From assembly GCA_026545225.1 (NCBI GenBank), contig CM048850.1, positions 5,832,001-5,896,000 of the forward strand: a stretch of DNA of 64,000 nt. Reading direction: 5' to 3'. The DNA comes from Cornus controversa. Its lineage: Eukaryota; Streptophyta; Magnoliopsida; Cornales; Cornaceae. Position numbers and translations under genes: made by a program. The notes beneath the pieces are model-generated. The model worked only from the letters and a program-made list of their open reading frames with translations. It was not told the origin of the DNA and ran no database searches. Shown here piece after piece: positions 1 to 28,479 of this stretch (the first letter of the stretch is position 1; every line of letters starts with the position of its first letter).

Positions 1-104
1 CAAAGTACTTTAAAAGTGTGGAAAGTGAAAAAAATGAGATTAAAAAATGTGAATAAACATTTTTATAAATTTTTTGTGCAAAAGCATCTTTCATATATGG
101 GTAA

Positions 105-309
105 GAGTTCCTAAAAAAACTGGGAAGAAAAAACATCAGAAAATGTTGGTTTTTGGTGTGTGGAAAAGTACTTTAAATTTGTGGAAAAATACTTTAAATG
201 TATGGAAACTACTTTAAAAGTGTAGAAAGTGAGAAAAAATGAGTCTAAAAAATGTGAATTTAAATTTTTATGATTTTTTTGTGCAAATACATCTTTCAAA
301 TATGCTTAA
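105..309 (+). repeat. Representative A subunit (205 bp) of the satellite
   Basis: The A subunit starts at GAGTTCCTAAA, continues with a CTGGGAAGAAAAAACAT-type block, and then carries four tandem variants of a roughly 20 bp motif built on GTGTGGAAAAGTACTTTAAA. It ends in an AT-rich block closing with AATATGCTTAA. Length is 204-205 bp wherever it is complete. It exceeds the B subunit by about 40 bp, which is two of the 20 bp motifs. Confidence 0.9.
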
Positions 310-474
310 GAGTTCCTAAAAAAATTCAAAAGTAAAAAAAAAAGAAAAATTATTTGTTTTAAGTGTGTGGAAAGTACTTTAAAAGTGTTTAAAGTGCAAA
401 AGAATGAGACTAAAAAATGTGAATATAAATTTTTATAAATTTTTTGTGCAAAAACATCTCTCATATATGGGTAA
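310..474 (+). repeat. Representative B subunit (165 bp) of the satellite
   Basis: The B subunit follows A directly and starts with the same anchor. Its second block is ATTCAAAAGTAAAAAAAAAAG rather than the CTGGGAAG type. It has only about one and a half copies of the 20 bp GTGTGGAAAGTACTTTAAA motif, and it ends in ATATATGGGTAA rather than AATATGCTTAA. A and B alternate strictly, so the dimer of about 370 bp is the basic period and A and B are diverged relatives. Confidence 0.88.
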
Positions 475-843
475 GAGTTCCTAAAAAAATAGGGAAGAAA
501 AAACATAAGAAAATGTTGGTTTTAGGTGTGTGGAAAAGTACTTTAAATTTGTGGAAAAATACTTTAAATGTGTGGAAACTACTTTAAAAGTGTGGAAAGT
601 GAGAAAAAAATGAGTCTAAAAATGTGAATTTAAATTTTTATGATTTTTTTGTACAAATACATCCTTCAAATATGCTTAAGACTTCCTAAAAAAATTCAAA
701 AGTAAAAAAAAAGAAAAATTATTTGTTTTAAGTGTGTGGAAAGTACTTTAAAAGTGTTTATAGTGCCAAAAAATGAGACTAAAAAATGTGAATATAAATT
801 TTTATAAATTTTTTGTGCAGAAACATCTTTCATATATGGGTAA

Positions 844-993
844 GAGTTCCTAAAAATATTGGAAGGAAAAAATATAAACAAATATTGGAAATTACTTTAA
901 AAGTGTGGAAAGTGAGAAAAAAATGAGGCTAAAAAATGTGAATTTAAATTTTTTTGATTTTTTTGTGCAAATACATCTTTCAAATATGCTTAA
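844..993 (+). repeat. Shortened A subunit (150 bp) that marks the HOR-1 register
   Basis: The third A position of each HOR-1 copy is only 150 bp. It lacks about 55 bp covering most of the 20 bp motifs: the text runs from CAAATATT straight to GGAAATTACTTTAAAAG. The same short form recurs at the same place in later copies (for example near 2635, 4426, 6218 and 8010), so the deletion came before amplification of the HOR and is a useful register marker. Confidence 0.85.
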
Positions 994-3900
994 GAGTACC
1001 CAAAAAAATTCAAAAGAAAAAGGAAAGAAAAATTATTTGTTTTAAGTGTGTGGAAAGTACTTTAAAAGTGTGGAAAGTTAAAAAAACATGAGACTAAAAA
1101 ATGTGAATATAAATTTTTATGAATTTTTTGTGCAAAAACATCTTTCATATATGGGTAAGAGTTCCTAAAAATATTGGGAAGAAAAAATATAAGAAAATAT
1201 TTGTTTTAGGTGTGGGAAAAGTACTTTAAATTTGTGAAAAAATACTTTAAATGTGTGGAAACTACTTTAAAAGTGTGGAAAGTGAGAAAAAATGAGTCTA
1301 AAAAATGTGAATTTAAATTTTTATGATTTTTTTGTGCAAATACATCTTTCAAATATGCTTAAGAGTTCCTAAAAAAATTCAAAAGTAAAAAAAAAAGAAA
1401 AATTATTTGTTTTAAGTGTGTGCAAAGTACTTTAAAAGTGTTTAAAGTGCAAAAAAATGAGACTAAAAAATGTGAATATAAATTTTTATAAATTTTTTGT
1501 GCAAAAACATCTTTCATATATGGTAAGAGTTCCTAAAAAAATTGGGAAGAAAAAACATCAGAAAATGTTGGTTTTTGGTGTGTGGAAAAGTACTTTAAAT
1601 TTGTGGAAAAATACTTTAAATGTATGGAAACTACTTTAAAAGTGTAGAAAGTGAGAAAAAATGAGTCTAAAAAATGTGAATTTAAATTTTTATGATTTTT
1701 TTGTACAAATACATCTTTCAAATATGCTTAAGAGTTCCTAAAAATATTCAAAAGAGAAAAAACAAGAAAAATTATTTGTTTTAAGAGTGGGCAAAGTACT
1801 TTAAAAGTGTGGAAAGTGAAAAAAATGAGATTAAAAAATGTGAATAAACATTTTTATAAATTTTTTGTGCAAAAGCATCTTTCATATATGGGTAAGAGTT
1901 CCTAAAAAAACTGGGAAGAAAAAACATCAGAAAATGTTGGTTTTTGGTGTGTGGAAAAGTACTTTAAATTTGTGGAAAAATACTTTAAATGTATGGAAAC
2001 TACTTTAAAAGTGTAGAAAGTGAGAAAAAATGAGTCTAAAAAATGTGAATTTAAATTTTTATGATTTTTTTGTGCAAATACATCTTTCAAATATGCTTAA
2101 GAGTTCCTAAAAAAATTCAAAAGTAAAAAAAAAAGAAAAATTATTTGTTTTAAGTGTGTGGAAAGTACTTTAAAAGTGTTTAAAGTGCAAAAGAATGAGA
2201 CTAAAAAATGTGAATATAAATTTTTATAAATTTTTTGTGCAAAAACATCTCTCATATATGGGTAAGAGTTCCTAAAAAAATAGGGAAGAAAAAACATAAG
2301 AAAATGTTGGTTTTAGGTGTGTGGAAAAGTACTTTAAATTTGTGGAAAAATACTTTAAATGTGTGGAAACTACTTTAAAAGTGTGGAAAGTGAGAAAAAA
2401 ATGAGTCTAAAAATGTGAATTTAAATTTTTATGATTTTTTTGTACAAATACATCCTTCAAATATGCTTAAGACTTCCTAAAAAAATTCAAAAGTAAAAAA
2501 AAAGAAAAATTATTTGTTTTAAGTGTGTGGAAAGTACTTTAAAAGTGTTTATAGTGCCAAAAAATGAGACTAAAAAATGTGAATATAAATTTTTATAAAT
2601 TTTTTGTGCAGAAACATCTTTCATATATGGGTAAGAGTTCCTAAAAATATTGGAAGGAAAAAATATAAACAAATATTGGAAATTACTTTAAAAGTGTGGA
2701 AAGTGAGAAAAAAATGAGGCTAAAAAATGTGAATTTAAATTTTTTTGATTTTTTTGTGCAAATACATCTTTCAAATATGCTTAAGAGTACCCAAAAAAAT
2801 TCAAAAGAAAAAAGAAAGAAAAATTATTTGTTTTAAGTGTGTGGAAAGTACTTTAAAAGTGTGGAAAGTTAAAAAAACATGAGACTAAAAAATGTGAATA
2901 TAAATTTTTATGAATTTTTTGTGCAAAAACATCTTTCATATATGGGTAAGAGTTCCTAAAAATATTGGGAAGAAAAAATATAAGAAAATATTTGTTTTAG
3001 GTGTGGGAAAAGTACTTTAAATTTGTGAAAAAATACTTTAAATGTGTGGAAACTACTTTAAAAGTGTGGAAAGTGAGAAAAAATGAGTCTAAAAAATGTG
3101 AATTTAAATTTTTATGATTTTTTTGTGCAAATACATCTTTCAAATATGCTTAAGAGTTCCTAAAAAAATTCAAAAGTAAAAAAAAAAGAAAAATTATTTG
3201 TTTTAAGTGTGTGCAAAGTACTTTAAAAGTGTTTAAAGTGCAAAAAAATGAGACTAAAAAATGTGAATATAAATTTTTATAAATTTTTTGTGCAAAAACA
3301 TCTTTCATATATGGTAAGAGTTCCTAAAAAAATTGGGAAGAAAAAACATCAGAAAATGTTGGTTTTTGGTGTGTGGAAAAGTACTTTAAATTTGTGGAAA
3401 AATACTTTAAATGTATGGAAACTACTTTAAAAGTGTAGAAAGTGAGAAAAAATGAGTCTAAAAAATGTGAATTTAAATTTTTATGATTTTTTTGTACAAA
3501 TACATCTTTCAAATATGCTTAAGAGTTCCTAAAAATATTCAAAAGAGAAAAAACAAGAAAAATTATTTGTTTTAAGAGTGGGCAAAGTACTTTAAAAGTG
3601 TGGAAAGTGAAAAAAATGAGATTAAAAAATGTGAATAAACATTTTTATAAATTTTTTGTGCAAAAGCATCTTTCATATATGGGTAAGAGTTCCTAAAAAA
3701 ACTGGGAAGAAAAAACATCAGAAAATGTTGGTTTTTGGTGTGTGGAAAAGTACTTTAAATTTGTGGAAAAATACTTTAAATGTATGGAAACTACTTTAAA
3801 AGTGTAGAAAGTGAGAAAAAATGAGTCTAAAAAATGTGAATTTAAATTTTTATGATTTTTTTGTGCAAATACATCTTTCAAATATGCTTAAGAGTTCCTA

Positions 3901-6900
3901 AAAAAATTCAAAAGTAAAAAAAAAAGAAAAATTATTTGTTTTAAGTGTGTGGAAAGTACTTTAAAAGTGTTTAAAGTGCAAAAGAATGAGACTAAAAAAT
4001 GTGAATATAAATTTTTATAAATTTTTTGTGCAAAAACATCTCTCATATATGGGTAAGAGTTCCTAAAAAAATAGGGAAGAAAAAACATAAGAAAATGTTG
4101 GTTTTAGGTGTGTGGAAAAGTACTTTAAATTTGTGGAAAAATACTTTAAATGTGTGGAAACTACTTTAAAAGTGTGGAAAGTGAGAAAAAAATGAGTCTA
4201 AAAATGTGAATTTAAATTTTTATGATTTTTTTGTACAAATACATCCTTCAAATATGCTTAAGACTTCCTAAAAAAATTCAAAAGTAAAAAAAAAGAAAAA
4301 TTATTTGTTTTAAGTGTGTGGAAAGTACTTTAAAAGTGTTTATAGTGCCAAAAAATGAGACTAAAAAATGTGAATATAAATTTTTATAAATTTTTTGTGC
4401 AGAAACATCTTTCATATATGGGTAAGAGTTCCTAAAAATATTGGAAGGAAAAAATATAAACAAATATTGGAAATTACTTTAAAAGTGTGGAAAGTGAGAA
4501 AAAAATGAGGCTAAAAAATGTGAATTTAAATTTTTTTGATTTTTTTGTGCAAATACATCTTTCAAATATGCTTAAGAGTACCCAAAAAAATTCAAAAGAA
4601 AAAAGAAAGAAAAATTATTTGTTTTAAGTGTGTGGAAAGTACTTTAAAAGTGTGGAAAGTTAAAAAAACATGAGACTAAAAAATGTGAATATAAATTTTT
4701 ATGAATTTTTTGTGCAAAAACATCTTTCATATATGGGTAAGAGTTCCTAAAAATATTGGGAAGAAAAAATATAAGAAAGTATTTGTTTTAGGTGTGGGAA
4801 AAGTACTTTAAATTTGTGAAAAAATACTTTAAATGTGTGGAAACTACTTTAAAAGTGTGGAAAGTGAGAAAAAATGAGTCTAAAAAATGTGAATTTAAAT
4901 TTTTATGATTTTTTTGTGCAAATACATCTTTCAAATATGCTTAAGAGTTCCTAAAAAAATTCAAAAGTAAAAAAAAAAGAAAAATTATTTGTTTTAAGTG
5001 TGTGCAAAGTACTTTAAAAGTGTTTAAAGTGCAAAAAAATGAGACTAAAAAATGTGAATATAAATTTTTATAAATTTTTTGTGCGAAAACATCTTTCATA
5101 TATGGGTAAGAGTTCCTAAAAAAATTGGGAAGAAAAAACATAAAAAAATGTTGGTTTTAGGTGTGTGGAAAAGTACTTTAAATTTGTGGAAAAATACTTT
5201 AAATGTGTGGAAACTACTTTAAAAGTGTGGAAAGTGAGAAAAAATGAGTCTAAAAAATGTGAATTTAAATTTTTATGATTTTTTTGTACAAATACATCTT
5301 TCAAATATGCTTAAGAGTTCCTAAAAATATTCAAAAGAGAAAAAACAAGAAAAATTATTTGTTTTAAGAGTGGGCAAAGTACTTTAAAAGTGTGGAAAGT
5401 GAAAAAAATGAGATTAAAAAATGTGAATAAACATTTTTATAAATTTTTTGTGCAAAAGCATCTTTCATATATGGGTAAGAGTTCCTAAAAAAACTGGGAA
5501 GAAAAAACATCAGAAAATGTTGGTTTTTGGTGTGTGGAAAAGTACTTTAAATTTGTGGAAAAATACTTTAAATGTGTGGAAACTACTTTAAAAGTGTAGA
5601 AAGTGAGAAAAAATGAGTCTAAAAAATGTGAATTTAAATTGTTATGATTTTTTTGTGCAAATACATCTTTCAAATATGCTTAAGAGTTCCTAAAAAAATT
5701 CAAAAGTAAAAAAAAAAGAAAAATTATTTGTTTTAAGTGTGTGGAAAGTACTTTAAAAGTGTTTAAAGTGCAAAAGAATGAGACTAAAAAATGTGAATAT
5801 AAATTTTTATAAATTTTTTGTGCAAAAACATCTCTCATATATGGGTAAGAGTTCCTAAAAAAATAGGGAAGAAAAAACATAAGAAAATGTTGGTTTTAGG
5901 TGTGTGGAAAAGTACTTTAAATTTGTGGAAAAATACTTTAAATGTGTGGAAACTACTTTAAAAGTGTGGAAAGTGAGAAAAAAATGAGTCTAAAAATGTG
6001 AATTTAAATTTTTATGATTTTTTTGTACAAATACATCCTTCAAATATGCTTAAGACTTCCTAAAAAAATTCAAAAGTAAAAAAAAAGAAAAATTATTTGT
6101 TTTAAGTGTGTGGAAAGTACTTTAAAAGTGTTTATAGTGCCAAAAAATGAGACTAAAAAATGTGAATATAAATTTTTATAAATTTTTTGTGCAGAAACAT
6201 CTTTCATATATGGGTAAGAGTTCCTAAAAATATTGGAAGGAAAAAATATAAACAAATATTGGAAACTACTTTAAAAGTGTGGAAAGTGAGAAAAAAATGA
6301 GGCTAAAAAATGTGAATTTAAATTTTTTTGATTTTTTTGTGCAAATACATCTTTCAAATATGCTTAAGAGTACCTAAAAAAATTCAAAAGAAAAAAGAAA
6401 GAAAAATTATTTGTTTTAAGTGTGTGGAAAGTACTTTAAAAGTGTGGAAAGTTAAAAAAACATGAGACTAAAAAATGTGAATATAAATTTTTATGAATTT
6501 TTTGTGCAAAAACATCTTTCATATATGGGTAAGAGTTCCTAAAAATATTGGGAAGAAAAAATATAAGAAAATATTTGTTTTAGGTGTGGGAAAAGTACTT
6601 TAAATTTGTGAAAAAATACTTTAAATGTGTGGAAACTACTTTAAAAGTGTGGAAAGTGAGAAAAAATGAGTCTAAAAAATGTGAATTTAAATTTTTATGA
6701 TTTTTTTGTGCAAATACATCTTTCAAATATGCTTAAGAGTTCCTAAAAAAATTCAAAAGTAAAAAAAAAAGAAAAATTATTTGTTTTAAGTGTGTGCAAA
6801 GTACTTTAAAAGTGTTTAAAGTGCAAAAAAATGAGACTAAAAAATGTGAATATAAATTTTTATAAATTTTTTGTGCAAAAACATCTTTCATATATGGTAA

Positions 6901-9900
6901 GAGTTCCTAAAAAAATTGGGAAGAAAAAACATCAGAAAATGTTGGTTTTTGGTGTGTGGAAAAGTACTTTAAATTTGTGGAAAAATACTTTAAATGTATG
7001 GAAACTACTTTAAAAGTGTAGAAAGTGAGAAAAAATGAGTCTAAAAAATGTGAATTTAAATTTTTATGATTTTTTTGTACAAATACATCTTTCAAATATG
7101 CTTAAGAGTTCCTAAAAATATTCAAAAGAGAAAAAACAAGAAAAATTATTTGTTTTAAGAGTGGGCAAAGTACTTTAAAAGTGTGGAAAGTGAAAAAAAT
7201 GAGATTAAAAAATGTGAATAAACATTTTTATAAATTTTTTGTGCAAAAGCATCTTTCATATATGGGTAAGAGTTCCTAAAAAAACTGGGAAGAAAAAACA
7301 TCAGAAAATGTTGGTTTTTGGTGTGTGGAAAAGTACTTTAAATTTGTGGAAAAATACTTTAAATGTATGGAAACTACTTTAAAAGTGTAGAAAGTGAGAA
7401 AAAATGAGTCTAAAAAATGTGAATTTAAATTTTTATGATTTTTTTGTGCAAATACATCTTTCAAATATGCTTAAGAGTTCCTAAAAAAATTCAAAAGTAA
7501 AAAAAAAAGAAAAATTATTTGTTTTAAGTGTGTGGAAAGTACTTTAAAAGTGTTTAAAGTGCAAAAGAATGAGACTAAAAAATGTGAATATAAATTTTTA
7601 TAAATTTTTTGTGCAAAAACATCTCTCATATATGGGTAAGAGTTCCTAAAAAAATAGGGAAGAAAAAACATAAGAAAATGTTGGTTTTAGGTGTGTGGAA
7701 AAGTACTTTAAATTTGTGGAAAAATACTTTAAATGTGTGGAAACTACTTTAAAAGTGTGGAAAGTGAGAAAAAAATGAGTCTAAAAATGTGAATTTAAAT
7801 TTTTATGATTTTTTTGTACAAATACATCCTTCAAATATGCTTAAGACTTCCTAAAAAAATTCAAAAGTAAAAAAAAAGAAAAATTATTTGTTTTAAGTGT
7901 GTGGAAAGTACTTTAAAAGTGTTTATAGTGCCAAAAAATGAGACTAAAAAATGTGAATATAAATTTTTATAAATTTTTTGTGCAGAAACATCTTTCATAT
8001 ATGGGTAAGAGTTCCTAAAAATATTGGAAGGAAAAAATATAAACAAATATTGGAAATTACTTTAAAAGTGTGGAAAGTGAGAAAAAAATGAGGCTAAAAA
8101 ATGTGAATTTAAATTTTTTTGATTTTTTTGTGCAAATACATCTTTCAAATATGCTTAAGAGTACCCAAAAAAATTCAAAAGAAAAAAGAAAGAAAAATTA
8201 TTTGTTTTAAGTGTGTGGAAAGTACTTTAAAAGTGTGGAAAGTTAAAAAAACATGAGACTAAAAAATGTGAATATAAATTTTTATGAATTTTTTGTGCAA
8301 AAACATCTTTCATATATGGGTAAGAGTTCCTAAAAATATTGGGAAGAAAAAATATAAGAAAGTATTTGTTTTAGGTGTGGGAAAAGTACTTTAAATTTGT
8401 GAAAAAATACTTTAAATGTGTGGAAACTACTTTAAAAGTGTGGAAAGTGAGAAAAAATGAGTCTAAAAAATGTGAATTTAAATTTTTATGATTTTTTTGT
8501 GCAAATACATCTTTCAAATATGCTTAAGAGTTCCTAAAAAAATTCAAAAGTAAAAAAAAAAGAAAAATTATTTGTTTTAAGTGTGTGCAAAGTACTTTAA
8601 AAGTGTTTAAAGTGCAAAAAAATGAGACTAAAAAATGTGAATATAAATTTTTATAAATTTTTTGTGCGAAAACATCTTTCATATATGGGTAAGAGTTCCT
8701 AAAAAAATTGGGAAGAAAAAACATAAAAAAATGTTGGTTTTAGGTGTGTGGAAAAGTACTTTAAATTTGTGGAAAAATACTTTAAATGTGTGGAAACTAC
8801 TTTAAAAGTGTGGAAAGTGAGAAAAAATGAGTCTAAAAAATGTGAATTTAAATTTTTATGATTTTTTTGTACAAATACATCTTTCAAATATGCTTAAGAG
8901 TTCCTAAAAATATTCAAAAGAGAAAAAACAAGAAAAATTATTTGTTTTAAGAGTGGGCAAAGTACTTTAAAAGTGTGGAAAGTGAAAAAAATGAGATTAA
9001 AAAATGTGAATAAACATTTTTATAAATTTTTTGTGCAAAAGCATCTTTCATATATGGGTAAGAGTTCCTAAAAAAACTGGGAAGAAAAAACATCAGAAAA
9101 TGTTGGTTTTTGGTGTGTGGAAAAGTACTTTAAATTTGTGGAAAAATACTTTAAATGTGTGGAAACTACTTTAAAAGTGTAGAAAGTGAGAAAAAATGAG
9201 TCTAAAAAATGTGAATTTAAATTGTTATGATTTTTTTGTGCAAATACATCTTTCAAATATGCTTAAGAGTTCCTAAAAAAATTCAAAAGTAAAAAAAAAA
9301 GAAAAATTATTTGTTTTAAGTGTGTGGAAAGTACTTTAAAAGTGTTTAAAGTGCAAAAGAATGAGACTAAAAAATGTGAATATAAATTTTTATAAATTTT
9401 TTGTGCAAAAACATCTCTCATATATGGGTAAGAGTTCCTAAAAAAATAGGGAAGAAAAAACATAAGAAAATGTTGGTTTTAGGTGTGTGGAAAAGTACTT
9501 TAAATTTGTGGAAAAATACTTTAAATGTGTGGAAACTACTTTAAAAGTGTGGAAAGTGAGAAAAAAATGAGTCTAAAAATGTGAATTTAAATTTTTATGA
9601 TTTTTTTGTACAAATACATCCTTCAAATATGCTTAAGACTTCCTAAAAAAATTCAAAAGTAAAAAAAAAGAAAAATTATTTGTTTTAAGTGTGTGGAAAG
9701 TACTTTAAAAGTGTTTATAGTGCCAAAAAATGAGACTAAAAAATGTGAATATAAATTTTTATAAATTTTTTGTGCAGAAACATCTTTCATATATGGGTAA
9801 GAGTTCCTAAAAATATTGGAAGGAAAAAATATAAACAAATATTGGAAACTACTTTAAAAGTGTGGAAAGTGAGAAAAAAATGAGGCTAAAAAATGTGAAT

Positions 9901-12645
9901 TTAAATTTTTTTGATTTTTTTGTGCAAATACATCTTTCAAATATGCTTAAGAGTACCTAAAAAAATTCAAAAGAAAAAAGAAAGAAAAATTATTTGTTTT
10001 AAGTGTGTGGAAAGTACTTTAAAAGTGTGGAAAGTTAAAAAAACATGAGACTAAAAAATGTGAATATAAATTTTTATGAATTTTTTGTGCAAAAACATCT
10101 TTCATATATGGGTAAGAGTTCCTAAAAATATTGGGAAGAAAAAATATAAGAAAATATTTGTTTTAGGTGTGGGAAAAGTACTTTAAATTTGTGAAAAAAT
10201 ACTTTAAATGTGTGGAAACTACTTTAAAAGTGTGGAAAGTGAGAAAAAATGAGTCTAAAAAATGTGAATTTAAATTTTTATGATTTTTTTGTGCAAATAC
10301 ATCTTTCAAATATGCTTAAGAGTTCCTAAAAAAATTCAAAAGTAAAAAAAAAAGAAAAATTATTTGTTTTAAGTGTGTGCAAAGTACTTTAAAAGTGTTT
10401 AAAGTGCAAAAAAATGAGACTAAAAAATGTGAATATAAATTTTTATAAATTTTTTGTGCAAAAACATCTTTCATATATGGGTAAGAGTTCCTAAAAAAAT
10501 TGGGAAGAAAAAACATAAGAAAATGTTGGTTTTAGGTGTGTGGAAAAGTACTTTAAATTTGTGGAAAAATACTTTAAATGTGTGGAAACTACTTTAAAAG
10601 TGTGGAAAGTGAGAAAAAATGAGTCTAAAAAATGTGAATTTAAATTTTTATGATTTTTTTGTACAAATACATCTTTCAAATATGCTTAAGAGTTCCTAAA
10701 AATATTCAAAAGAGAAAAAACAAGAAAAATTATTTGTTTTAAGAGTGGGCAAAGTACTTTAAAAGTGTGGAAAGTTAAAAAAATGAGATTAAAAAATGTG
10801 AATAAACATTTTTATAAATTTTTTGTGCAAAAGCATCTTTCATATATGGGTAAGAGTTCCTAAAAAAACTGGGAAGAAAAAACATCAGAAAATGTTGGTT
10901 TTTGGTGTGTGGAAAAGTACTTTAAATTTGTGGAAAAATACTTTAAATGTGTGGAAACTACTTTAAAAGTGTAGAAAGTGAGAAAAAATGAGTCTAAAAA
11001 ATGTGAATTTAAATTGTTATGATTTTTTTGTGCAAATACATCTTTCAAATATGCTTAAGAGTTCCTAAAAAAATTCAAAAGTAAAAAAAAAAGAAAAATT
11101 ATTTGTTTTAAGTGTGTGGAAAGTACTTTAAAAGTGTTTAAAGTGCAAAAGAATGAGACTAAAAAATGTGAATATAAATTTTTATAAATTTTTTGTGCAA
11201 AAACATCTCTCATATATGGGTAAGAGTTCCTAAAAAAATAGGGAAGAAAAAACATAAGAAAATGTTGGTTTTAGGTGTGTGGAAAAGTACTTTAAATTTG
11301 TGGAAAAATACTTTAAATGTGTGGAAACTACTTTAAAAGTGTGGAAAGTGAGAAAAAAATGAGTCTAAAAATGTGAATTTAAATTTTTATGATTTTTTTG
11401 TACAAATACATCCTTCAAATATGCTTAAGACTTCCTAAAAAAATTCAAAAGTAAAAAAAAAGAAAAATTATTTGTTTTAAGTGTGTGGAAAGTACTTTAA
11501 AAGTGTTTATAGTGCCAAAAAATGAGACTAAAAAATGTGAATATAAATTTTTATAAATTTTTTGTGCAGAAACATCTTTCATATATGGGTAAGAGTTCCT
11601 AAAAATATTGGAAGGAAAAAATATAAACAAATATTGGAAATTACTTTAAAAGTGTGGAAAGTGAGAAAAAAATGAGGCTAAAAAATGTGAATTTAAATTT
11701 TTTTGATTTTTTTGTGCAAATACATCTTTCAAATATGCTTAAGAGTACCCAAAAAAATTCAAAAGAAAAAAGAAAGAAAAATTATTTGTTTTAAGTGTGT
11801 GGAAAGTACTTTAAAAGTGTGGAAAGTTAAAAAAACATGAGACTAAAAAATGTGAATATAAATTTTTATGAATTTTTTGTGCAAAAACATCTTTCATATA
11901 TGGGTAAGAGTTCCTAAAAATATTGGGAAGAAAAAATATAAGAAAGTATTTGTTTTAGGTGTGGGAAAAGTACTTTAAATTTGTGAAAAAATACTTTAAA
12001 TGTGTGGAAACTACTTTAAAAGTGTGGAAAGTGAGAAAAAATGAGTCTAAAAAATGTGAATTTAAATTTTTATGATTTTTTTCTGCAAATACATCTTTCA
12101 AATATGCTTAAGAGTTCCTAAAAAAATTCAAAAGTAAAAAAAAAAGAAAAATTATTTGTTTTAAGTGTGTGCAAAGTACTTTAAAAGTGTTTAAAGTGCA
12201 AAAAAATGAGACTAAAAAATGTGAATATAAATTTTTATAAATTTTTTGTGCAAAAACATCTTTCATATATGGGTAAGAGTTCCTAAAAAAATTGGGAAGA
12301 AAAAACATAAGAAAATGTTGGTTTTAGGTGTGTGGAAAAGTACTTTAAATTTATGGAAAAATACTTTAAATGTGTGGAAACTACTTTAAAAGTGTGGAAA
12401 GTGAGAAAAAATGAGTCTAAAAAATGTGAATTTAAATTTTTATGATTTTTTTGTACAAATACATCTTTCAAATATGCTTAAGAGTTCCTAAAAATATTCA
12501 AAAGAGAAAAAACAAGAAAAATTATTTGTTTTAAGAGTGGGCAAAGTACTTTAAAAGTGTGGAAAGTGAAAAAAATGAGATTAAAAAATGTGAATAAACA
12601 TTTTTATAAATTTTTTGTGCAAAAGCATCTTTCATATATGGGTAA

Positions 12646-13697
12646 GAGTTCCTAAAAAAACTGGGAAGAAAAAACATCAGAAAATGTTGGTTTTTGGTGT
12701 GTGGAAAAGTACTTTAAATTTGTGGAAAAATACTTTAAATGTGTGGAAACTACTTTAAAAGTGTAGAAAGTGAGAAAAAATGAGTCTAAAAAATGTGAAT
12801 TTAAATTTTTATGATTTTTTTGTGCAAATACATCTTTCAAATATGCTTAAGAGTTCCTAAAAAAATTCAAAAGTAAAAAAAAAAGAAAAATTATTTGTTT
12901 TAAGTGTGTGGAAAGTACTTTAAAAGTGTTTAAAGTGCAAAAGAATGAGACTAAAAAATGTGAATATAAATTTTTATAAATTTTTTGTGCAAAAACATCT
13001 CTCATATATGGGTAAGAGTTCCTAAAAAAATAGGGAAGAAAAAACATAAGAAAATGTTGGTTTTAGGTGTGTGGAAAAGTACTTTAAATTTGTGGAAAAA
13101 TACTTTAAATGTGTGGAAACTACTTTAAAAGTGTGGAAAGTGAGAAAAAAATGAGTCTAAAAATGTGAATTTAAATTTTTATGATTTTTTTGTAAAAATA
13201 CATCCTTCAAATATGCTTAAGACTTCCTAAAAAAATTCAAAAGTAAAAAAAAATAAAAATTATTTGTTTTAAGTGTGTGGAAAGTACTTTAAAAGTGTTT
13301 ATAGTGCCAAAAAATGAGACTAAAAAATGTGAATATAAATTTTTATAAATTTTTTGTGCAGAAACATCTTTCATATATGCGTAAGAGTTCCTAAAAATAT
13401 TGGAAGGAAAAAATATAAACAAATATTGGAAATTACTTTAAAAGTGTGGAAAGTGAAAAAAAATGAGGCTAAAAAATGTGAATTTAAATTTTTTTGATTT
13501 TTTTGTGCAAATACATCTTTCAAATATGCTTAAGAGTTCCTAAAAAAATTCAAAAGAGAAAAAACAAGAAAAACTATTTGTTTTAAGAGTGGGCAAAGTA
13601 CTTTAAAAGTGTGGAAAGTGAAAAAAATGAGATTAAAAAATGTGAATAAACATTTTTATAAATTTTTTGTGCAAAAGCATCTTTCATATATGGGTAA
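12646..13697 (+). repeat. HOR-1 copy with internal deletion of four subunits
   Basis: This copy is about 1,052 bp instead of 1,792. It runs A1, B1, A2, B2, short A3 and then goes directly into the B5-type subunit (AAAGAGAAAAAACAAG followed by AAGAGTGGGCAAAG). B3, A4, B4 and A5 are missing, about 740 bp or two dimers. The join preserves the A-B alternation, as expected of unequal exchange or slippage between homologous B subunits. Confidence 0.8.
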
Positions 13698-15489
13698 GAG
13701 TTCCTAAAAAAACTGGGAAGAAAAAACATCAGAAAATGTTGGTTTTTGGTGTGTGGAAAAGTACTTTAAATTTGTGGAAAAATACTTTAAATGTGTGGAA
13801 ACTACTTTAAAAGTGTAGAAAGTGAGAAAAAATGAGTCTAAAAAATGTGAATTTAAATTTTTATGATTTTTTTGTGCAAATACATCTTTCAAATATGCTT
13901 AAGAGTTCCTAAAAAAATTCAAAAGTAAAAAAAAAAGAAAAATTATTTGTTTTAAGTGTGTGGAAAGTACTTTAAAAGTGTTTATAGTGCCAAAAAATGA
14001 GACTAAAAAATGTGAATATAAATTTTTATAAATTTTTTGTGCAGAAACATCTTTCATAGATGGGTAAGAGTTCCTAAAAATATTGGAAGGAAAAAATATA
14101 AACAAATATTGGAAATTACTTTAAAAGTGTGAAAGTGAGAAAAAAATGAGGCTAAAAAATGTGAATTTAAATTTTTTTGATTTTTTTGTGCAAATACATC
14201 TTTCAAATATGCTTAAGAGTACCTAAAAAAATTCAAAAGAAAAAAGAAAGAAAAATTATTTGTTTTAAGTGTGTGGAAAGTACTTTAAAAGTGTGGAAAG
14301 TTAAAAAAACATGAGACTAAAAAATGTGAATATAAATTTTTATGAATTTTTTGTGCAAAAACATCTTTCATATATGGGTAAGAGTTCCTAAAAATATTGG
14401 GAAGAAAAAATATAAGAAAATATTTGTTTTAGGTGTGGGAAAAGTACTTTAAATTTGTGAAAAAATACTTTAAATGTGTGGAAACTACTTTAAAAGTGTG
14501 GAAAGTGAGAAAAAATGAGTCTAAAAAATGTGAATTTAAATTTTTATGATTTTTTTGTGCAAATACATCTTTCAAATATGCTTAAGAGTTCCTAAAAAAA
14601 TTCAAAAGTAAAAAAAAAAGAAAAATTATTTGTTTTAAGTGTGTGCAAAGTACTTTAAAAGTGTTTAAAGTGCAAAAAAATGAGACTAAAAAATGTGAAT
14701 ATAAATTTTTATAAATTTTTTGTGCAAAAACATCTTTCATATATGGGTAAGAGTTCCTAAAAAAATTGGGAAGAAAAAACATAAGAAAATGTTGGTTTTA
14801 GGTGTGTGGAAAAGTACTTTAAATTTGTGGAAAAATACTTTAAATGTGTGGAAACTACTTTAAAAGTGTGGAAAGTGTGAAAAAATGAGTCTAAAAAATG
14901 TGAATTTAAATTTTTATGATTTTTTTGTGCAAATACATCTTTCAAATATGCTTAAGAGTTCCTAAAAAAATTCAAAAGTAAAAAAAAAAGAAAAATTATT
15001 TGTTTTAAGTGTGTGGAAAGTACTTTAAAAGTGTTTAAAGTGCAAAAAAATGAGACTAAAAAATGTGAATATAAATTTTTATAAATTTTTTGTGCAAAAA
15101 CATCTTTCATATATGGCTAAGAGTTCCTAAAAAAATTGGGAAGAAAAAACATAAGAAAATGTTGGTTTTAGGTGTGTGGAAAAGTACTTTAAATTTGTGG
15201 AAAAATACTTTAAATGTGTGGAAACTACTTTAAAAGTGTGGAAAGTGAGAAAAAATGAGTCTAAAAAATGTGAATTTAAATTTTTATGATTTTTTTGTAC
15301 AAATACATCTTTCAAATATGCTTAAGAGTTCCTAAAAAAATTCAAAAGAGAAAGAACAAGAAAAATTATTTGTTTTAAGAGTGTGCAAAGTACTTTAAAA
15401 GTGTGGAAAGTGAAAAAAATGAGATTAAAAAATGTGAATAAACATTTTTATAAATTTTTTGTGCAAAAGCATCTTTCATATATGGGTAA
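13698..15489 (+). repeat. Rearranged HOR-1 copy (dimer lost and dimer gained)
   Basis: The first A subunit is followed by a B2-type subunit (with TTTATAGTGCC), so B1 and A2, about 370 bp, are skipped. Further on there is an extra dimer: A-type units sit at about 14751 and 15121, 370 bp apart. Loss and gain cancel, leaving a total length near 1,792 bp although the order is changed. The copy lies immediately before the switch to the shorter HOR. Confidence 0.72.
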
Positions 15490-18400
15490 GAGTTCCTAAA
15501 AAAACTGGGAAGAAAAAACATCAGAAAATGTTGGTTTTTGGTGTGTGGAAAAGTACTTTAAATTTGTGGAAAAATACTTTAAATGTGTGGAAACTACTTT
15601 AAAAGTGTAGAAAGTGAGAAAAAATGAGTCTAAAAAATGTGAATTTAAATTTTTATGATTTTTTTTTGCAAATACATCTTTCAAATATGCTTAAGAATTC
15701 CTAAAAAAATTCAAAAGTAAAAAAAAAAGAAAAATTATTTGTTTTAAGTGTGTGGAAAGTACTTTAAAAGTGTTTAAAGTGCAAAAAAATGAGACTAAAA
15801 AATGTGAATATAAATTTTTATAAATTTTTTGTGCAAAAACATCTCTCATATATGGGTAAGAGTTCCTAAAAAAATTGGGAAGAAAAAACATAAGAAAATG
15901 TTGGTTTTAGGTGTGTGGAAAAGTACTTTAAATTTGTGAAAAAATATTTTAAATGTGTGGAAACTACTTTAAAAGTGTGGAAAGTGAGAAAAAAATGAGT
16001 CTAAAAAATGTGAATTTAAATTTTTATGATTTTTTTGTACAAATACATCCTTCAAATATGCTTAAGACTTCCTAAAAAAATTCAAAAGTAAAGAAAAAGA
16101 AAAATTATTTGTTTTAAGTGTGTGGAAAGTACTTTAAAAGTGTTTATAGTGCCAAAAAATGAGACTAAAAAATGTGAATAAAAATTTTTATAAATTTTTT
16201 GTGCAGAAACATCTTTCATATATGGGTAAGAGTTCCTAAAAAAATTGGGAAGAAAAAACATAAGAAAATGTTGGTTTTAGGTGTGTGGAAAAGTACTTTA
16301 AATGTGTGGAAAAATACTTTAATTGTGTGGAAAGTATTTTAAAAGTGTGGAAAGTGAGAAAAAAAATAAGTCTTAAAAATGTGAATTTAAATTTTTATGA
16401 TTTTTTTGTACAAATACATCTTTCAAATATTTTAAGAGTTCCTAAAAAAATTCAAAAGAAAAAAAACAAGAAAAATTATTTGTTTTAAGAGTGTGCAAAG
16501 TACTTTAAAAGTGTGGAAAGTGAAAAAAATTAGATTAAAAAATGTGAATAAAACTTTTTATAATTTTTTTGTGCAAAAACATCTTTCATATATGGGTAAG
16601 AGTTCCTAAAAAAATTGGGAAGAAAAAACATAAGAAAATGTTGGTTTTAGGTGTGTGGAAAAGTACTTTAAATTTGTGAAAAAATACTTTAAATGTGTGA
16701 AAACTACTTTAAAAGTGTGGAAAGTGAGAAAAAATGAGTCTAAAAAATGTGAATTTAAATTTTTATGATTTTTTTGTGCAAATACATCTTTCAAATATGT
16801 TTAAGAGTTCCTAAAAAAATTCAAAAGTAAAAAAAAAAGAAAAATTATTTGTTTTAGGTGTGTGGAAAGTACTTTAAAAGTGTTTAAAGTGCAAAAAAAT
16901 GAGACTAAAAAATGTGAATATAAATTTTTATAAATTTTTTGTGCAAAAACATCTTTCATATATGGGTAAGAGTTCCTAAAAAAATTGGGAAGAAAAAAAA
17001 TAAGAAAATGTTGGTTTTAGTGTGTGGAAAAGTACTTTAAATTTGTGGAAAAATACTTTAAATGTGTGGAAACTACTTTAAAAGTGTGGAAAGTGAGAAA
17101 AAAATGAGTCTAAAAAATGTGAATTTAAATTTTTATGATTTTTTTGTACAAATACATCTTTCAAATATGCTTAAGACTTCCTAAAAAAATTCAAAAGTAA
17201 AAAAAAAGAAAAATTATTTGTTTTAAGTGTGTGGAAAGTACTTTAAAAGTGTTTATAGTGCCAAAAAATGAGACTAAAAAATGTGAATATAAATTTTTAT
17301 AAATTTTTTGTGCAAAAACTTCTTTCATATATGGCTAAGAGTTCCTAAAAAAATTGGGAAGAAAAAATATAAGAAAATGTTGGTTTTAGGTGTGTGGAAA
17401 AGTACTTTAAATGTGTGGAAAAATACTGTAATTGTGTGGAAAGTATTTTAAAAGTGTGGAAAGTGAGAAAAAAATGAGTTTAAAAAATGTGAATTTAAAT
17501 TTTTATGATTTTTTTTTACAAATACATCTTTCAAATATGCTTAAGAGTTCCTAAAAAAATTCAAAGGAAAAAAAAAAGAAAAATTATTTGTTTTAAGTGT
17601 GTGCAAAGTACTTTAAAAGTATGGATAGTGAAAAAAATGAGATTAAAAAATGTGAATATAAATTTTTATGAATTTTTTGTGCAAAAACATCTTTCATATA
17701 TGGCTAAGAGTTCCTAAAAGAATTGGGAAGAAAAAACATAAGAAAATGTTGGTTTTAGGTGTGTGGAAAAGTACTTTAAATTTGTGGAAAAATACTTTAA
17801 ATGTGTGGAAACTACTTTAAAAGTGTGGAAAGTGAGAAAAAATGAGTCTAAAAAATGTGAATTTAAATTTTTATGATTTTTTTGTGCAAATACATCTTTC
17901 AAATATGCTTAAGAGTTCCTAAAAAAATTCAAAAGTAAAAAAAAAAAGAAAAATTATTTGTTTTAAGTGTGTGGAAAGTACTTTAAAAGTGTTTAAAGTG
18001 CAAAAAAATGAGACTAAAAAATGTGAATATAAATTTTTATAAATTTTTTGTGCAAAAACATCTCTCATATATGGGTAAGAGTTCCTAAAAAAACTGGGAA
18101 GAAAAAACATAAGAAAATGTTGGTTTTAGTGTGTGGAAAAGTACTTTAAATTTGTGGAAAAATACTTTAAATGTGTGGAAACTACTTTAAAAGTGTGTTA
18201 AGTAAGAAAAAAATGAGTCTAAAAAATGTGAATTTAAATTTTTATGATTTTTTTGTACAAATACATCCTTCAAATATGCTTAAGACTTCCTAAAAAAATT
18301 CAAAAGAAAAAAAAAAGAAAAATTACTTGTTTTAAGTGTGTGGAAAGTACTTTAAAAGTGTTTATAGTGCCAAAAAATGAGACTAAAAAATGTGAATATA

Positions 18401-20300
18401 AATTTTTATAAATTTTTTGTGCAAAAACTTCTTTCATATATGGCTAAGAGTTCCTAAAAAAATTGGGAAGAAAAAATATAAGAAAATGTTGGTTTTAGGT
18501 GTGTGGAAAAGTACTTTAAATGTGTGGAAAAGTACTTTAATTGTGTGGAAAGTATTTTAAAAGTGTGGAAAGTGAGAAAAAAATGAGTCTAAAAAATGTG
18601 AATTTAAATTTTTATGAATTTTTTTTACAAATACATCTTTCAAATATGCTTAAGAGTTCCTAAAAAAATTTAAAAGAAAAAAAAAAGAAAAATTATTTGT
18701 TTTAAGTGTGTGCAAAGTACTTTAAAAGTGTGGAAAGTGAAAAAAATTAGATTAAAAAATGTGAATATAAATTTTTATGAATTTTTTGTGCAAAAACATC
18801 TTTCATATATGGGTAAGAGTTCCTAAAAAAATTGGGAAGAAAAAACATAAGAAAATGTTGGTTTTAGGTGTGTGGAAAAGTACTTTAAATTTGTGGAAAA
18901 ATACTTTAAATGTGTGGAAACTACTTTAAAAGTGTGGAAAGTGAGAAAAAATGAGTCTAAAAAATGTGAATTTAAATTTTTATGATTTTTTTGTGCAAAT
19001 ACATCTTTCAAATATGCTTAAGAGTTCCTAAAAAAATTCAAAAGTAAAAAAAAAAAGAAAAATTATTTGTTTTAAGTGTGTGCAAAGTACTTTAAAAGTG
19101 TTTAAAGTGCAAAAAAATGAGACTAAAAAATGTGAATATAAATTTTTATAAATTTTTTGTGCAAAAACATCTCTCATATATGGGTAAGAGTTCCTAAAAA
19201 AACTGGGAAGAAAAAACATAAGAAAATGTTGGTTTTAGTGTGTGGAAAAGTACTTTAAATTTGTGGAAAAATACTTTAAATGTGTGGAAACTACTTTAAA
19301 AGTGTGTTAAGTGAGAAAAAAATGAGTCTAAAAAATGTGAATTTAAATTTTTATGATTTTTTTGTACAAATACATCCTTCAAATATGCTTAAGACTTCCT
19401 AAAAAAATTCAAAAGTAAAAAAAAAGAAAAATTACTTGTTTTAAGTGTGTGGAAAGTACTTTAAAAGTGTTTATAGTGCCAAAAAATGAGACTAAAAAAT
19501 GTGAATATAAATTTTTATAAATTTTTTGTGCAAAAACTTCTTTCATATATGGCTAAGAGTTCCTAAAAAAATTGGGAAGAAAAAATATAAGAAAATGTTG
19601 GTTTTAGGTGTGTGGAAAAGTACTTTAAATGTGTGGAAAAGTACTTTAATTGTGTGGAAAGTATTTTAAAAGTGTGGAAAGTGAGAAAAAAATGAGTCTA
19701 AAAAATGTGAATTTAAATTTTTATGATTTTTTTTTACAAATACATCTTTCAAATATGCTTAAGAGTTCCTAAAAAAATTTAAAAGAAAAAAAAAAGAAAA
19801 ATTATTTGTTTTAAGTGTGTGCAAAGTACTTTAAAAGTGTGGAAAGTGAAAAAAATGAGATTAAAAAATGTGAATATAAATTTTTATGAATTTTTTGTGC
19901 AAAAACATCTTTCATATATGGGTAAGAGTTCCTAAAAAAATTGGGAAGAAAAAATATAAGAAAATGTTTGTTTTAGGTGTGGGAAAAGTACTTTAAATTT
20001 GTGGAAAAATACTTTAAATGTGTGGAAACTACTTTAAAAGTGTGGAAAGTGAGAAAAAAATGAGTCTAAAAATGTGAATTTAAATTTTTATGATTTTTTT
20101 GTGCAAATACATCTTTCAAATATGCTTAAGAGTTCCTAAAAAAATTCAAAAGTAAAAAAAAAAAAAGAAAATTATTTGTTTTAAGTGTGTGGAAAGTACT
20201 TTAAAAGTGTTTAAAGTGCAAAAAAAATGAGACTAAAAAATGTGAATATTAATTTTTATAAATTTTTTCTGCAAAAACATCTTTCATATATGGCTAAGAG
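15490..20300 (+). repeat. Satellite array, about 1,109 bp higher-order repeat (HOR-2)
   Basis: From about 15,490 the period changes to 1,108-1,110 bp: matching A subunits begin near 15490, 16600, 17708, 18817 and 19926. This equals three A-B dimers. A marker variant, GTGTGGAAAGTATTTTAAAAG, recurs near 16328, 17438, 18548 and 19657, again about 1,110 bp apart. The copies at 17708 and 18817 are very alike; the first and last are more diverged. Subunits are clearly the same family as HOR-1 and in the same orientation. Confidence 0.85.
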
Positions 20301-21900
20301 TTCCTAAAAAAGTTGGGAAGAAAAAACATAAGAAAATGTTTGTTTTAGGTGTGTGGAAAAGTACTTTAAATGTGTGGGAAAGTACTTTAATTGTGTGGAA
20401 AGTATTTTAAAAGTGTGGAAAGTAAGAAAAAAATGAGCCTAAAAAAAGTGCATTTAAATTTTTTTGATTTTTTTGTGCAAATACATCATTCAAATATGTC
20501 TAAGAGTTCCTAAAAAAAATAGGAAAGAAAAAAATATTTTTTTTTTGTTTTATGTGTGTGGAAAGTACTTTAAAAGTGTGGAAAGTGAAAAAAATTGAGA
20601 TTAAAAAATGTGAATATAAATTTTTAAGAATTTTTTTTTGCAAAGACATCTTTTATATATGCCTAAGAGTTTCTAAAAAATTTGGAAAGAAAAAATATAA
20701 AAATGTATTTGTTTTAGGTGTGTGGATAAGTACTTTAAATGTGTGAAAAATACTTTAAAAGTGTGGAAAGTGAGAAAAAAATTAGCCTAAAAAATGTGAA
20801 TATAAATTTTTATGATTTTTTGTGCAAATACATCCTTCAAATATGCCTAAGAGTTCCTAAAAAAATTGGAAAGAAAAAAATAAAAAACGTATATGTTTTG
20901 AGTGTTTGGAAACTACTTTAGAAGTGTGGAAAGTGAGAAAAAAATGAGATTAAAAAATGTGAATAAAATTTTTTATGAAATTTTTTGTGCAAAAATATAT
21001 TTCATATATGCCTTAGAGTTCCTAAAAAAATTGAAAATAAAAATTATAAAAAAATATTTGTTTTAGATGTGTGGAAAAGTACTTTAAATGTGTGGAAAAT
21101 ACTTTAAAAATGTGAAAAATGAGAAGAAAAAAATGAGCCTAAAAAATGTGAATATAAATTTTTATGATTTTTTTGTGCAAATACATTTTTCAAATCTGCT
21201 TAAGAGTTCCTAAAAAAATTGGAAATAAAAAAATCAAAAAAATTATTTGTTTTAAGTGTGTTGAAGTTATTTTAAAAGTGTGGAAAGTGAAAAAAAATGA
21301 AATTAAAAAATGTGAATATAATTTTTTTATGAATTTTTTGTTCAAAAACATAATTCATATTTGCCTAAGAGTTCCTAAAAGAATTAGAAATAAAAAACAT
21401 AAAAAAGTATTTGTTTTAGATGTGTGGAAAAATATTTTAAATATGAGAAAAAATACTTTAAAAGTGTGGAAAGTGAGAAAAAATTAGCCTATGTGGATAT
21501 AAATTTGTATGATTTTTTGTGCAAATACATTCTTCAAATATGTCTAAGAGTTCCTTAAAAAAATTGGAAAGAAAAAATATAAAAAAATATTTGTTTTATG
21601 TGTGTGGAAAAGTACTTTAAATGTGTGGAAAAATATTTTATATGTGTGGAAATGAACTTTAAGTTCGTGGACATGAGTTTTAATAAATGTGAAAATAAAA
21701 TGTTATGTTTTATTTGTGTGAAAACATTTATTGGATGTGTTTCTGAAAAATTTGGAGAGAAAAAGCATAGAAAATGATTGGTTTTGAGTGTGTGAAAAAT
21801 AATCGTAAACTCGTGGATACTTAGTTTATTGGTGTGAAAATATATATTTTAAGTGCGTGAACATCCGTGTTATCAATGTGAAAGTTAAATCAATTTGAGA
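20301..21900 (+). repeat. Degenerate edge of the satellite array
   Basis: Units recognised by AAGAGTTCCTAAA or close variants continue near 20506, 20664, 20848, 21012, 21205, 21367 and 21546, but spacing varies (about 160-195 bp) and substitutions and indels build up. After about 21,660 only weak traces of GTGTGGAAA and ACTTTAA remain, and by about 21,900 the satellite is gone. This is the pattern expected where homogenisation fades at an array edge. The 107-residue reading frame inside it is not a gene. Confidence 0.8.
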
Positions 21901-22660
21901 TTAATATGCTATTTTGATTGTAATGATTTACACAAATAAATAATAACAATTGATGTTCACATTTTTAAGTTTCACTTACACACACTTAAAATTACACTTC
22001 TACATATTTAAATTATTATTTCCACACACCTGCAAGAATTTTCACTCACTGAAAATACATAATTTTTTATGTTTTTTTTTCATTTTTTTAGAAACATTTA
22101 AGCACAAATTTTTTTTTATGAACATTTTTAAAAAAAAATTAATTGGAGAATCATTTTAATTGTTTGTAAAATGAATTTAAAGTTGTGAACAATTGTTTTA
22201 TGTGTGTATTCATTAATTAGAAAAATTATAACTTTTTTGTTTTAAGTTAAAACATAGCCTAAGTTGTACTCAAATTGAAGCTCTTGAAATATTCTATTTA
22301 ACAAAATTAATTTTATCAAAAAATATTATTTATAGTAAAAGTTATACACTTTTAAGTGAGAAAGAAAAAAAGTGTAAAACATATATATATCTATATATAT
22401 ATATATATATATATAGATAGATGGTATGAAGATAACAGATGGCAGATGCTGTATATATATATAATAATAAAATATTGAAAAGCTATGTAACGGCATGTAA
22501 CGGAAGGAAAAACGGAGCAAAGAAAACAAAAGTGGTTACATGTTGATTTAAACTAAACGACGCCGTCTCCAGGTACTGCATGGGTACAGCAGTACCCGTT
22601 TACGGCAGAGGATCCTCTTCCATTCTTCAAAGTGATTCACTAATCTGAACATATTTTATT

Positions 22661-22710: not shown

Positions 22711-23057
22711 TGTTGTAAATGGGTTCATAACCCACGTGGGTCTCTTAATGACAAACATATCTATCTCTAAAATATCTCCCCCAACCTCCTTTCATTTGCT
22801 ATATATATATAAGCATCAGATCATATACAAAAGGGATGGTTTTTCCTTTGACAGAAACTTCTCTCTCTCGTGTATACCAATCTCTCTCTCTACTCTCTCA
22901 ATCTTCTTTCTCTTATTGTTATAGACATATATCTATATACATATCAATCTTCTTCTCTCTGTCTTCTCACTCTCTTTCTGTCTCACTGTATAATAGTATA
23001 TATTTATACTATTATTATTGTTTAGTTATATAGTTATTAGATTATACTTTTACAACA
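22711..23057 (+). repeat. 5' LTR of copia element 1 (347 bp)
   Basis: It begins TGTTGTAAATGGG and ends TACAACA, the short inverted ends usual for LTRs. It matches the 3' LTR base for base by eye, apart from one short indel near the end that accounts for the 6 bp length difference. Near its start it has the 10 bp palindrome CCCACGTGGG, which contains a G-box core. A TATATATATAAG string near 22,800-22,812 is a plausible promoter TATA element, followed by a CT-rich stretch. Confidence 0.93.
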
Positions 23058-23519
23058 CGTTATAAGCACGAGGCTCTGACCACTTGAGAAGACAAGTTAA
23101 AGCACGAGGTTCTAACGAACGGAGAAGACAATTTCATTTTTCACTTCCAAGCAAAAGGTACGAAAATTATATTTTATGTCATTTCAATAGATAAATATAT
23201 CTATACATATATCTATATATATATAGATAAATATATAATATATCTATTGGTGTATATGTATATATATATATATACCCATACATATGATCTATATATTTAT
23301 ATAGATATATCTATATATAAATATAAATATATAATATATATGTATATATAAAGTCCTTCCCGATTGCGAAGTGACATGTTCATATTTATTTTATTCTGTC
23401 AATATACTTATATATATATGTATATATAAAGTCCTTTCCGATTGCGAAGTGACATGTTCATATTTATACTATTCTATCAATATAGTATACATATAAAATT
23501 TCGAGTATCTTACAATATA

Positions 23520-24197: not shown

Positions 24198-24417
24198 AAC
24201 AAATGCTATCGAAAATTATGAACCGATAGCCATCAATCATCTTGATATTTCAGATATCTATAAAGACCTCCCTGAAATAAATAAATCAGTTGACTGATGA
24301 TGAAAATGTTCACATCAATTTGATATCATTTCATTTGGTTTTTATTAGTATATTATTACAAGTTTTGTTTGTAATTATACTTTTATTAATGTAATGAAGT
24401 TTGTTTCTTTTTAGAAA

Positions 24418-28124: not shown

Positions 28125-28133
28125 AAGGGGGAG
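28125..28133 (+). other. Polypurine tract of copia element 1
   Basis: AAGGGGGAG lies directly before the 3' LTR start TGTTGTAAAT. This is the position and composition expected of the plus-strand primer in LTR retrotransposon reverse transcription. Confidence 0.88.
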
Positions 28134-28474: not shown

Positions 28475-28479
28475 CATCA

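Follow-up and report, generated by a model that had tools for sequence, protein, structure and literature searches.

The 64,000-bp stretch of DNA analysed here (the window; C6:5,832,001-5,896,000, contig CM048850.1, in the 771.7-Mb, 61-contig Cornus controversa assembly GCA_026545225.1) opens with a tandem array of dimers of about 370 bp, which an earlier note, made from the letters alone, had likened to the alpha satellite of primates. With a probability of about 0.9, we consider this array to be one of two subterminal inverted repeats that form the satellite-bearing arms of a giant Mutator-like element (MULE). The repeat is not a free-standing satellite, and its higher-order repeats (HORs) grew inside a mobile element. 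Indeed, the arrays come in inverted pairs inside elements that have common termini, target-site duplications in most of the copies scored (the window's own is an exception) and a transposase frame, and they are inherited with the element that carries them.

Paired inverted arms and common termini

The genome, queried with the dimer, gave at least 388 matches. Among the matches listed, these are found on C1-C6 and C8-C10, scattered within chromosomes and often as oppositely oriented matches separated by as much as about 35 kb. Four loci were covered in full (eight ends and eight arms), namely the window's own element on C6 and those on C9, C1 and C5, and each consists of a left array on one strand, 27-32 kb of other sequence and a right array on the opposite strand. 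At the window's locus, the arrays occupy C6 5,784,071-5,794,607 (two blocks) and 5,826,563-5,853,890, the latter starting 5,438 bp upstream of the window. All four elements follow the same layout, with a short conserved tip, a unique terminal domain of about 0.5 kb, the array of A and B units, the interior and a second arm reversed. The window's element measures 71,025 bp. Its three close copies on other chromosomes (42.0-46.4 kb) measure 46,429 bp on C9, 42,025 bp on C5 and 44,661 bp on C1, where the element is reversed; the arms range from about 5.6 to 28 kb. In all four copies, the interior sequence is collinear, with blocks of more than 1 kb that are 94.5-99.6% alike. Overlapping shifted self-matches about 116 bp apart, located some 22.6-24.6 kb into the C6 and C9 interiors, point to a further short tandem repeat.

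Beyond the arrays, all eight outward-turned ends share sequence that stops at one terminus, ...GGCAGAGGATCCTCTTCC at the alpha end and ...GGCAGAGGATCCTGGTCC at the beta end, with small variants, and no common sequence is found in the eight flanks past it. In all four elements, one tip matches the other over some 60 bp and, the terminal domains and arrays being inverted as well, the elements possess the terminal inverted repeats (TIRs) of a MULE. Furthermore, these inverted repeats are long and composite, with a tandem-repeat number varying from 28 to 152 units across the eight arms, as in foldback elements.

Target-site duplications, which in MULEs are of about 9-11 bp, were scored in nine elements and are exact in five of them, four being of 9 bp (C1 GGGTATGAG, C5:22.1 TGTTGTGAG, C6:30.3 CATTCTCTC and C5:56.6 CTAAAGGTG) and one of 10 bp (C9 ATGTGTTTAT). 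A sixth element, at C8:6.54, has a duplication matching at 8/9 bases (TTGTTCGGT/CTGTTCGGT), and three are without; both this 8/9 duplication and the lack of one at C2:34.2 are visual judgements. As a control, 42 mismatched combinations of seven elements gave at best 6/9 matching bases, a value reached twice. The C8 element was chosen for its paired arrays, yet absent from the matches listed for either end query: predicted at 6.54-6.58 Mb from the paired arrays alone, it was then found to have both tips, 42.5 kb apart, together with the near-exact duplication (13 kb covered). An inverted segmental duplication without transposition is rejected in view of the common tips, the duplications at most scored copies and the transposase.

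The terminal domains are present at no fewer than about 40 places each (40 of 60 alpha rows and 41 of 43 beta rows were taken, second pieces and short internal matches being dropped). At least ten outward-facing pairs of ends lie within 80 kb of each other (4 to 71 kb) versus 0.18 expected by random placement, a control in which the sizes of C4, C7, C8 and C10 were guessed; one pair was in the wrong order. Among the ten pairs, that at C2:34.2 is probably mispaired and that at C2:84.5 has two alpha-type ends, while the C1 element is missing because its beta end is unlisted by either end query and the C8:6.54 element, found later, also lies outside them. The C2:84.5 locus (C2:84,501,265-84,505,306, L037) is a unit of 4 kb that resembles an element, with incomplete tips and both ends of alpha type; it is made mostly of a forward array with a short inverted segment, and was left out of the duplication scoring.

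The unit length, the dimer and the HOR levels would equally fit a conventional chromosomal HOR satellite, centromeric or subtelomeric, with transposon ends merely nearby. A locus at C3:37,451,001-37,458,000 (L041) agrees with such a satellite, since it bears minus-strand satellite matches over bases 1-6,933 of 7,000 with no tip in the 7 kb covered; some arrays may hence be free, and this one is possibly an array that left its element or part of a longer arm. On the other hand, paired inverted arrays lie inside defined elements at all four fully covered loci, the sites are scattered within chromosomes and, among the matches listed, 14 of the 17 array loci lie within 20 kb of a listed terminus. 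Of the three others, C8:6.54-6.57 was later found with both tips, C8:29.83-29.86 is an inverted pair and C3:37.46 is the locus without a tip. A conventional satellite is therefore very improbable as a general explanation, and for the window's array a free centromeric or subtelomeric satellite is rejected in view of the paired arms, the termini, the transposase and the dispersed loci. The likeness to alpha satellite drawn by the earlier note holds for the HOR plan, whereas the chromosomal, probably centromeric, identity it implied is unsupported, as the arrays stand inverted at the ends of 42-71 kb elements.

Organisation and growth of the arrays

The arm in the window is organised on the four levels that the earlier note had described, as attested by Tandem Repeats Finder periods, anchor-based partition and autocorrelation: a motif of about 20 bp, subunits of 165 and 205 bp, a dimer of about 370 bp and a five-dimer HOR of 1,791/1,792 bp. 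Tandem Repeats Finder gave nested periods of about 20/21, 150-165, 204-207 and 369/370 bp (among the matches listed, 150/203), and autocorrelation peaks at 1,792, 3,583 and 369. The first HOR copy does divide exactly into ten anchored units, in the order 205-165-205-164-150-165-204-165-204-164 bp (1,791 bp in total), and one of its five dimers has, as proposed, a short A unit, of 150 bp, which is shorter by about 55 bp and has neither of the extra motif copies. Units A and B differ by about 40 bp in two extra motifs of about 20 bp each, which the earlier note took to be the main difference; this is too strong, as 11-17% substitutions in aligned columns also separate them. Within one HOR copy, A and B are 0.83-0.89 identical in aligned columns and units of the same type 0.90-0.99. 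Over about 21.7 kb, 111 copies of the palindrome AAAGTACTTT are present.

The segments of the array and its outer end are collected in Table 1. An HOR array is present over 1-15,489, as had been claimed, yet this range is not uniform, since it takes in a recombined block and the very start of a second, three-dimer HOR; the array itself continues both downstream and upstream, where two more five-dimer blocks at 0.999 and one at 0.95 identity (aligned columns only) precede the window.

Table 1. Segments of the alpha arm and outer end of the element in the window
Positions	Strand	Feature	Basis
1..21890	+	Tandem array of A (~205 bp) and B (~165 bp) units, part of the alpha arm	
94..12634	+	Five-dimer HOR, seven complete copies, each 1,791 or 1,792 bp	Anchor partition
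12635..15478	+	Recombined block; five-dimer unit order broken by a second short (149-bp) unit	Unit placement
15479..19914	+	Three-dimer HOR, four copies, 1,108-1,110 bp (also given as 1,109 bp)	Identities 0.967-0.994
19915..~21890	+	Decayed units, outer array edge	Unit placement, satellite matches
21926..22101	-	Diverged satellite segment, inverted	nhmmer E 1.7e-10
22102..22621	+	Unique terminal domain and tip, alpha end ...CGGCAGAGGATCCTCTTCC, last base 22,621	Outer-end homology stops there
22622..22630	.	First nine flank bases, expected right duplication site; left flank match 6/9	Flank comparison

The seven complete five-dimer copies have a mean pairwise identity of 0.9961 (range 0.9939-1.0). 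Copies 3 and 5, which flank copy 4, show no difference over 1,792 bp, and copies 1 and 2 are separated by one substitution; this mosaic suggests that stretches longer than one HOR were exchanged. Repeats of 1.8 kb that share 99.6% identity, with two of them identical, are hard to count, and the exact HOR copy number in the window could result from misassembly of an array that is in fact shorter within the element. We hold this to be very unlikely: the copies carry different substitutions, one block is recombinant and a second locus, at C6:30.3 Mb (covered over 10 kb of array and the two ends), has an HOR of its own, of 1,113 bp, with six successive blocks 99.6-100% alike to two reference blocks.

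At its outer edge the array does not simply end, as it is followed by a satellite segment on the opposite strand (Table 1). The best nhmmer match in 20 shuffled 4-kb stretches had an E value of 3.4, and the two sides of the junction between array and inverted segment align locally with a score of 111 versus a maximum of 37 in 200 shuffles. The elements on C1 and C5 have a comparable inverted segment, of 101 bp, at the outer edge. Scans of the window with Rfam and for tRNAs gave no matches.

Unit counts differ between copies, the alpha arm of the window's element being the outlier. Anchored units number 44 (C9), 43 (C1), 47 (C5) and 152 (the window's C6) in the alpha arms and 33 (C9), 46 (C1), 28 (C5) and 52 (C6) in the beta arms. 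For 427 of 483 units (56 with lengths outside 158-170 or 200-210 bp were dropped), we sought the nearest unit in another arm, which belongs to the same arm class of another element in 413 cases, indicating that the arrays travel with the element. It belongs to the same element in only 4/427, which speaks against homogenisation of the arms within one element, though the beta arms fall into two classes. For instance, of the 75 short units in the alpha arm of the window's element, 51 have their closest counterpart in the C9 alpha arm, 22 in C6:30.3 and 2 in the C1 alpha arm, and none in the element's own beta arm.

The two HORs seem to differ in age. Between the window and C6:30.3, the regular part of the three-dimer HOR is 97.4-98.2% alike in register and 94.6-95.6% out of register, and this HOR hence predates the separation of the two copies. 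Of nine arms compared (one partial), that of the window alone shows the five-dimer HOR, as recognised by its unit-length pattern. In C1 and C5, short units of 150/151 bp lie close to the inner end of the alpha arm, which suggests that the founder block of the five-dimer HOR came from such an inner end.

Transposase, proposed mechanism and neighbouring genes

Near the alpha arm, a frame of 722 residues encodes a putative transposase with MULE (PF10551, E 9.8e-29), FAR1 (E 5.7e-26) and SWIM (E 1.3e-4) domains, and is open in three of the four copies (C9, C1 and C5). A PDB sequence search with this protein gave no match. Pairwise synonymous/nonsynonymous changes among the three open frames are 10/3, 10/5 and 2/2, few in number and leaning to constraint. 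Close to the transposase lies a 93-residue fragment of an Ulp1 protease (Peptidase_C48, E 2.5e-9, 37.7 bits versus a cut-off of 20.7) and, elsewhere in the element, a single eIF-6 fragment (E 1.6e-9), a candidate for a captured host-gene fragment. An HMG-box (24.0 bits, cut-off 25.4) and a plant-mobile-domain (27.9 bits, cut-off 34.9) remain below the curated cut-offs. Frames of 239 and 222 residues are kept in all four copies with no clear purifying signal (e.g. 7/6 and 1/6). A Transposase_32 (PF20167) frame is also present inside the elements, on opposite strands in C9 and C5 (L016:8,446-9,660 and L026:4,509-5,717); the blocks concerned are 82-83% alike between the C1/C5 and C6/C9 interiors and lie on opposite strands there too, and the frame may be a later insertion, perhaps in separate nested events.

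A mechanism can be proposed as follows. The element would move by cut-and-paste using its FAR1-MULE-SWIM transposase, and transposition would have carried the older three-dimer HOR between sites. Repeated out-of-register exchange, by unequal crossing-over or by gap repair after excision, would have amplified a five-dimer block in place to give the 1,791-bp HOR. As the least certain step, the arrays would have built up since each unit has a directional motif, GTGTGGAAA ... TACTTTAAA, bound by a protein of the element itself, which might be the transposase or an anti-silencing protein acting like VANC of the VANDAL elements. Both parts of the motif run almost wholly in one direction per arm and are near-absent from the interiors and from a 41.4-kb flank. 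In the window's element, the alpha arm holds 229 of the 230 copies of GTGTGGAAA, and the beta arm 82 of the 83 copies of its reverse complement. By analogy with VANDAL elements, we give some binding role for the arrays about even odds.

Alternatively, the same giant MULE may carry its arrays as passengers, that is, as tandem duplications that resize by unequal exchange and serve neither binding nor anti-silencing. The spread from 28 to 152 units per arm and the HORs that differ between copies are what neutral exchange predicts; on the other hand, both arms of all four elements keep their arrays and the motif has a fixed direction relative to the ends, two observations that are no more than suggestive of a role. 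We rate such passenger arrays at somewhat below an even chance. Bolder, and in our opinion doubtful, is the proposal that a recently active giant MULE uses nucleosome-sized arm arrays as a platform to which its transposase or an anti-silencing protein of its own binds, and thus acts as a mobile satellite nursery, carrying arrays and ready-made HORs between chromosomes. If this were true, carried arrays would expand in place and could outgrow the element, giving rise to new satellites, perhaps centromere-competent, without a centromeric origin.

Several observations weigh against a mobile element with satellite arms or parts of its proposed mechanism, besides the tipless C3 array mentioned above. 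The window's own element is without a convincing target-site duplication: its flanks match at 6/9 bases, which carries no meaning since 2 of the 42 mismatched combinations did as well. The element at C3:38.2 is without a duplication too (a shared 7-mer is out of register), as is that at C2:34.2, whose two ends may come from different elements. The transposase frame of the window's element is interrupted, the protein aligning as two pieces split by inserted sequence. The short units of the C1/C5 beta arms are 0.91-0.92 similar to alpha arms, against 0.87-0.88 for the C6/C9 beta arms; with such alpha-like units and two beta-arm classes, the descent of the arms is not simple. Finally, CACGCGC, the binding site of FHY3/FAR1, is absent from all four elements.

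The rest of the window lies outside the element. A Copia LTR retrotransposon starts 90 bp beyond the tip (22,711-28,475), with LTRs at 22,711-23,058 and 28,134-28,475 (98.0% over 348 bp) and a pol frame at 24,415-27,012 bearing RVT_2 and other copia domains. A gene for a 2OG-Fe(II) dioxygenase, with at least three exon-like frames (DIOX_N, 2OG-FeII_Oxy), spans 33,812-36,388; a partial tandem copy of it is found at 29,770-30,405, which matches 34,718-35,360 at 84.6%. Minus-strand copia remnants occupy 50,400-61,840, with frames at 56-60 kb, and include repeats of 50,418-51,934 with 59,912-61,834 (86-89%) and of 53,068-54,471 with 54,694-56,151 (93%).

Comparison with known systems

The earlier note had suggested that the satellite may be undescribed, and this may still be so, even though the array itself is a MULE arm. 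In unit length, it resembles the subtelomeric satellites CS-1, HSR1 and HJSR of Cannabaceae, with units of about 370-380 bp (PMC12406709, PMC3897423, PMC9332022). Identity with the Cannabis repeat, suggested by the 370-bp unit, is rejected, as the published CS-1/CS-237 oligonucleotides and primers match the array with 5-9 edits at best, no fewer than the best of 50 shuffles each. None of six 19-20-bp words of the repeat is printed in the open-licence literature searched, and shorter words led to no paper on the repeat by title among the 20 listed of 37. A search of open-licence text for 369/370-bp satellites gave one unrelated frog paper, and one repeat pattern sought in viral and prokaryote contig collections had no match. 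Likewise, no giant satellite-armed MULE was found among the titles listed from open-licence PMC text; since the search covered that text, such an element may be described elsewhere.

Among the elements described, the closest in plan is Tetris/TIR-220 of Drosophila virilis, a foldback transposon whose TIRs hold AT-rich tandem repeats of about 220 bp and which makes 8-10-bp duplications (PMC4079207). It is reported as non-autonomous, with TIRs of up to 1,735 bp, no transposase found and repeats expanded to satellite-like arrays, and its authors propose that repeats in the TIRs may add transposase sites (PMC4079207). Both elements have an outer flanking domain and a repeat domain; the Cornus element differs by its arms of about 5.6-28 kb, its encoded transposase, its two HOR types and its plant host, whereas no HOR is described in the Tetris passages compared and the term 'higher-order' is absent from the text of that paper. 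The Tm1 Mutator/Foldback family of root-knot nematodes likewise combines a MULE transposase, Phantom-like, with composite TIRs of variable-number tandem repeats (13-15 bp in Tm1), asymmetric tips and 9-bp target-site duplications (PMC3169594); satellite-sized units and HORs are not reported in the passages compared. The FARE foldback elements of Arabidopsis, known to us by citation, are said to contain a MULE-domain transposase (as cited in PMC3169594) and would thus be a further plant foldback of this type.

A second set of comparisons concerns MULEs of plants. In VANDAL21 of Arabidopsis, the protein VANC21, encoded by the element, removes DNA methylation and binds the nine-base motif YAGTATTAY, whose copies share one orientation within non-coding tandem repeats (PMC5735166). 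The likeness to the Cornus element, in which no VANC gene was identified, lies in this arrangement of the motif; VANDALs are described as non-TIR MULEs, whereas the Cornus element has TIRs. The same contrast applies to the KIU MULEs of Arabidopsis, described as non-TIR, which carry an Ulp1 (C48) domain that the Cornus element has as a fragment (PMC13317346). The transposase itself resembles that of the Jittery group, with FAR1 at the N terminus and SWIM at the C terminus, in which TIRs are of 39-292 bp or lacking, far shorter than kilobase arms; for all MULEs surveyed, the same paper reports 14-500 bp in its text and as much as 640 bp in a table (PMC6446971). A review on giant transposons mentions a study in which no Pack-MULE exceeded 7 kb (PMC6431247), and the words Mutator and MULE are absent from a 2025 review of satellites derived from transposons (PMC12628747).

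Judged from its sequence, the Cornus element is a MULE with an architecture of foldback type. Its kilobase arms, nucleosome-sized units, HORs and total size are above what we found described, and extend the range of MULEs to elements of 42-71 kb with kilobase arms and an apparently complete transposase. How satellites originate, spread to many chromosomes and acquire HORs has long been asked, for the most part in retrospect and at centromeres. In the Cornus genome, several steps stand side by side, namely arms of 28-47 units, a locus with an amplified three-dimer HOR, a five-dimer HOR in a 28-kb arm and an HOR common to two sites in register. HOR structure and 370-bp dimers alone are no evidence for a centromere, which calls for caution in annotating satellites in new plant assemblies. 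Arrays of the alpha-satellite type consist of diverged subunits in a fixed order inside near-identical HOR copies; the Cornus arrays share this plan and sit in the arms of a transposon.

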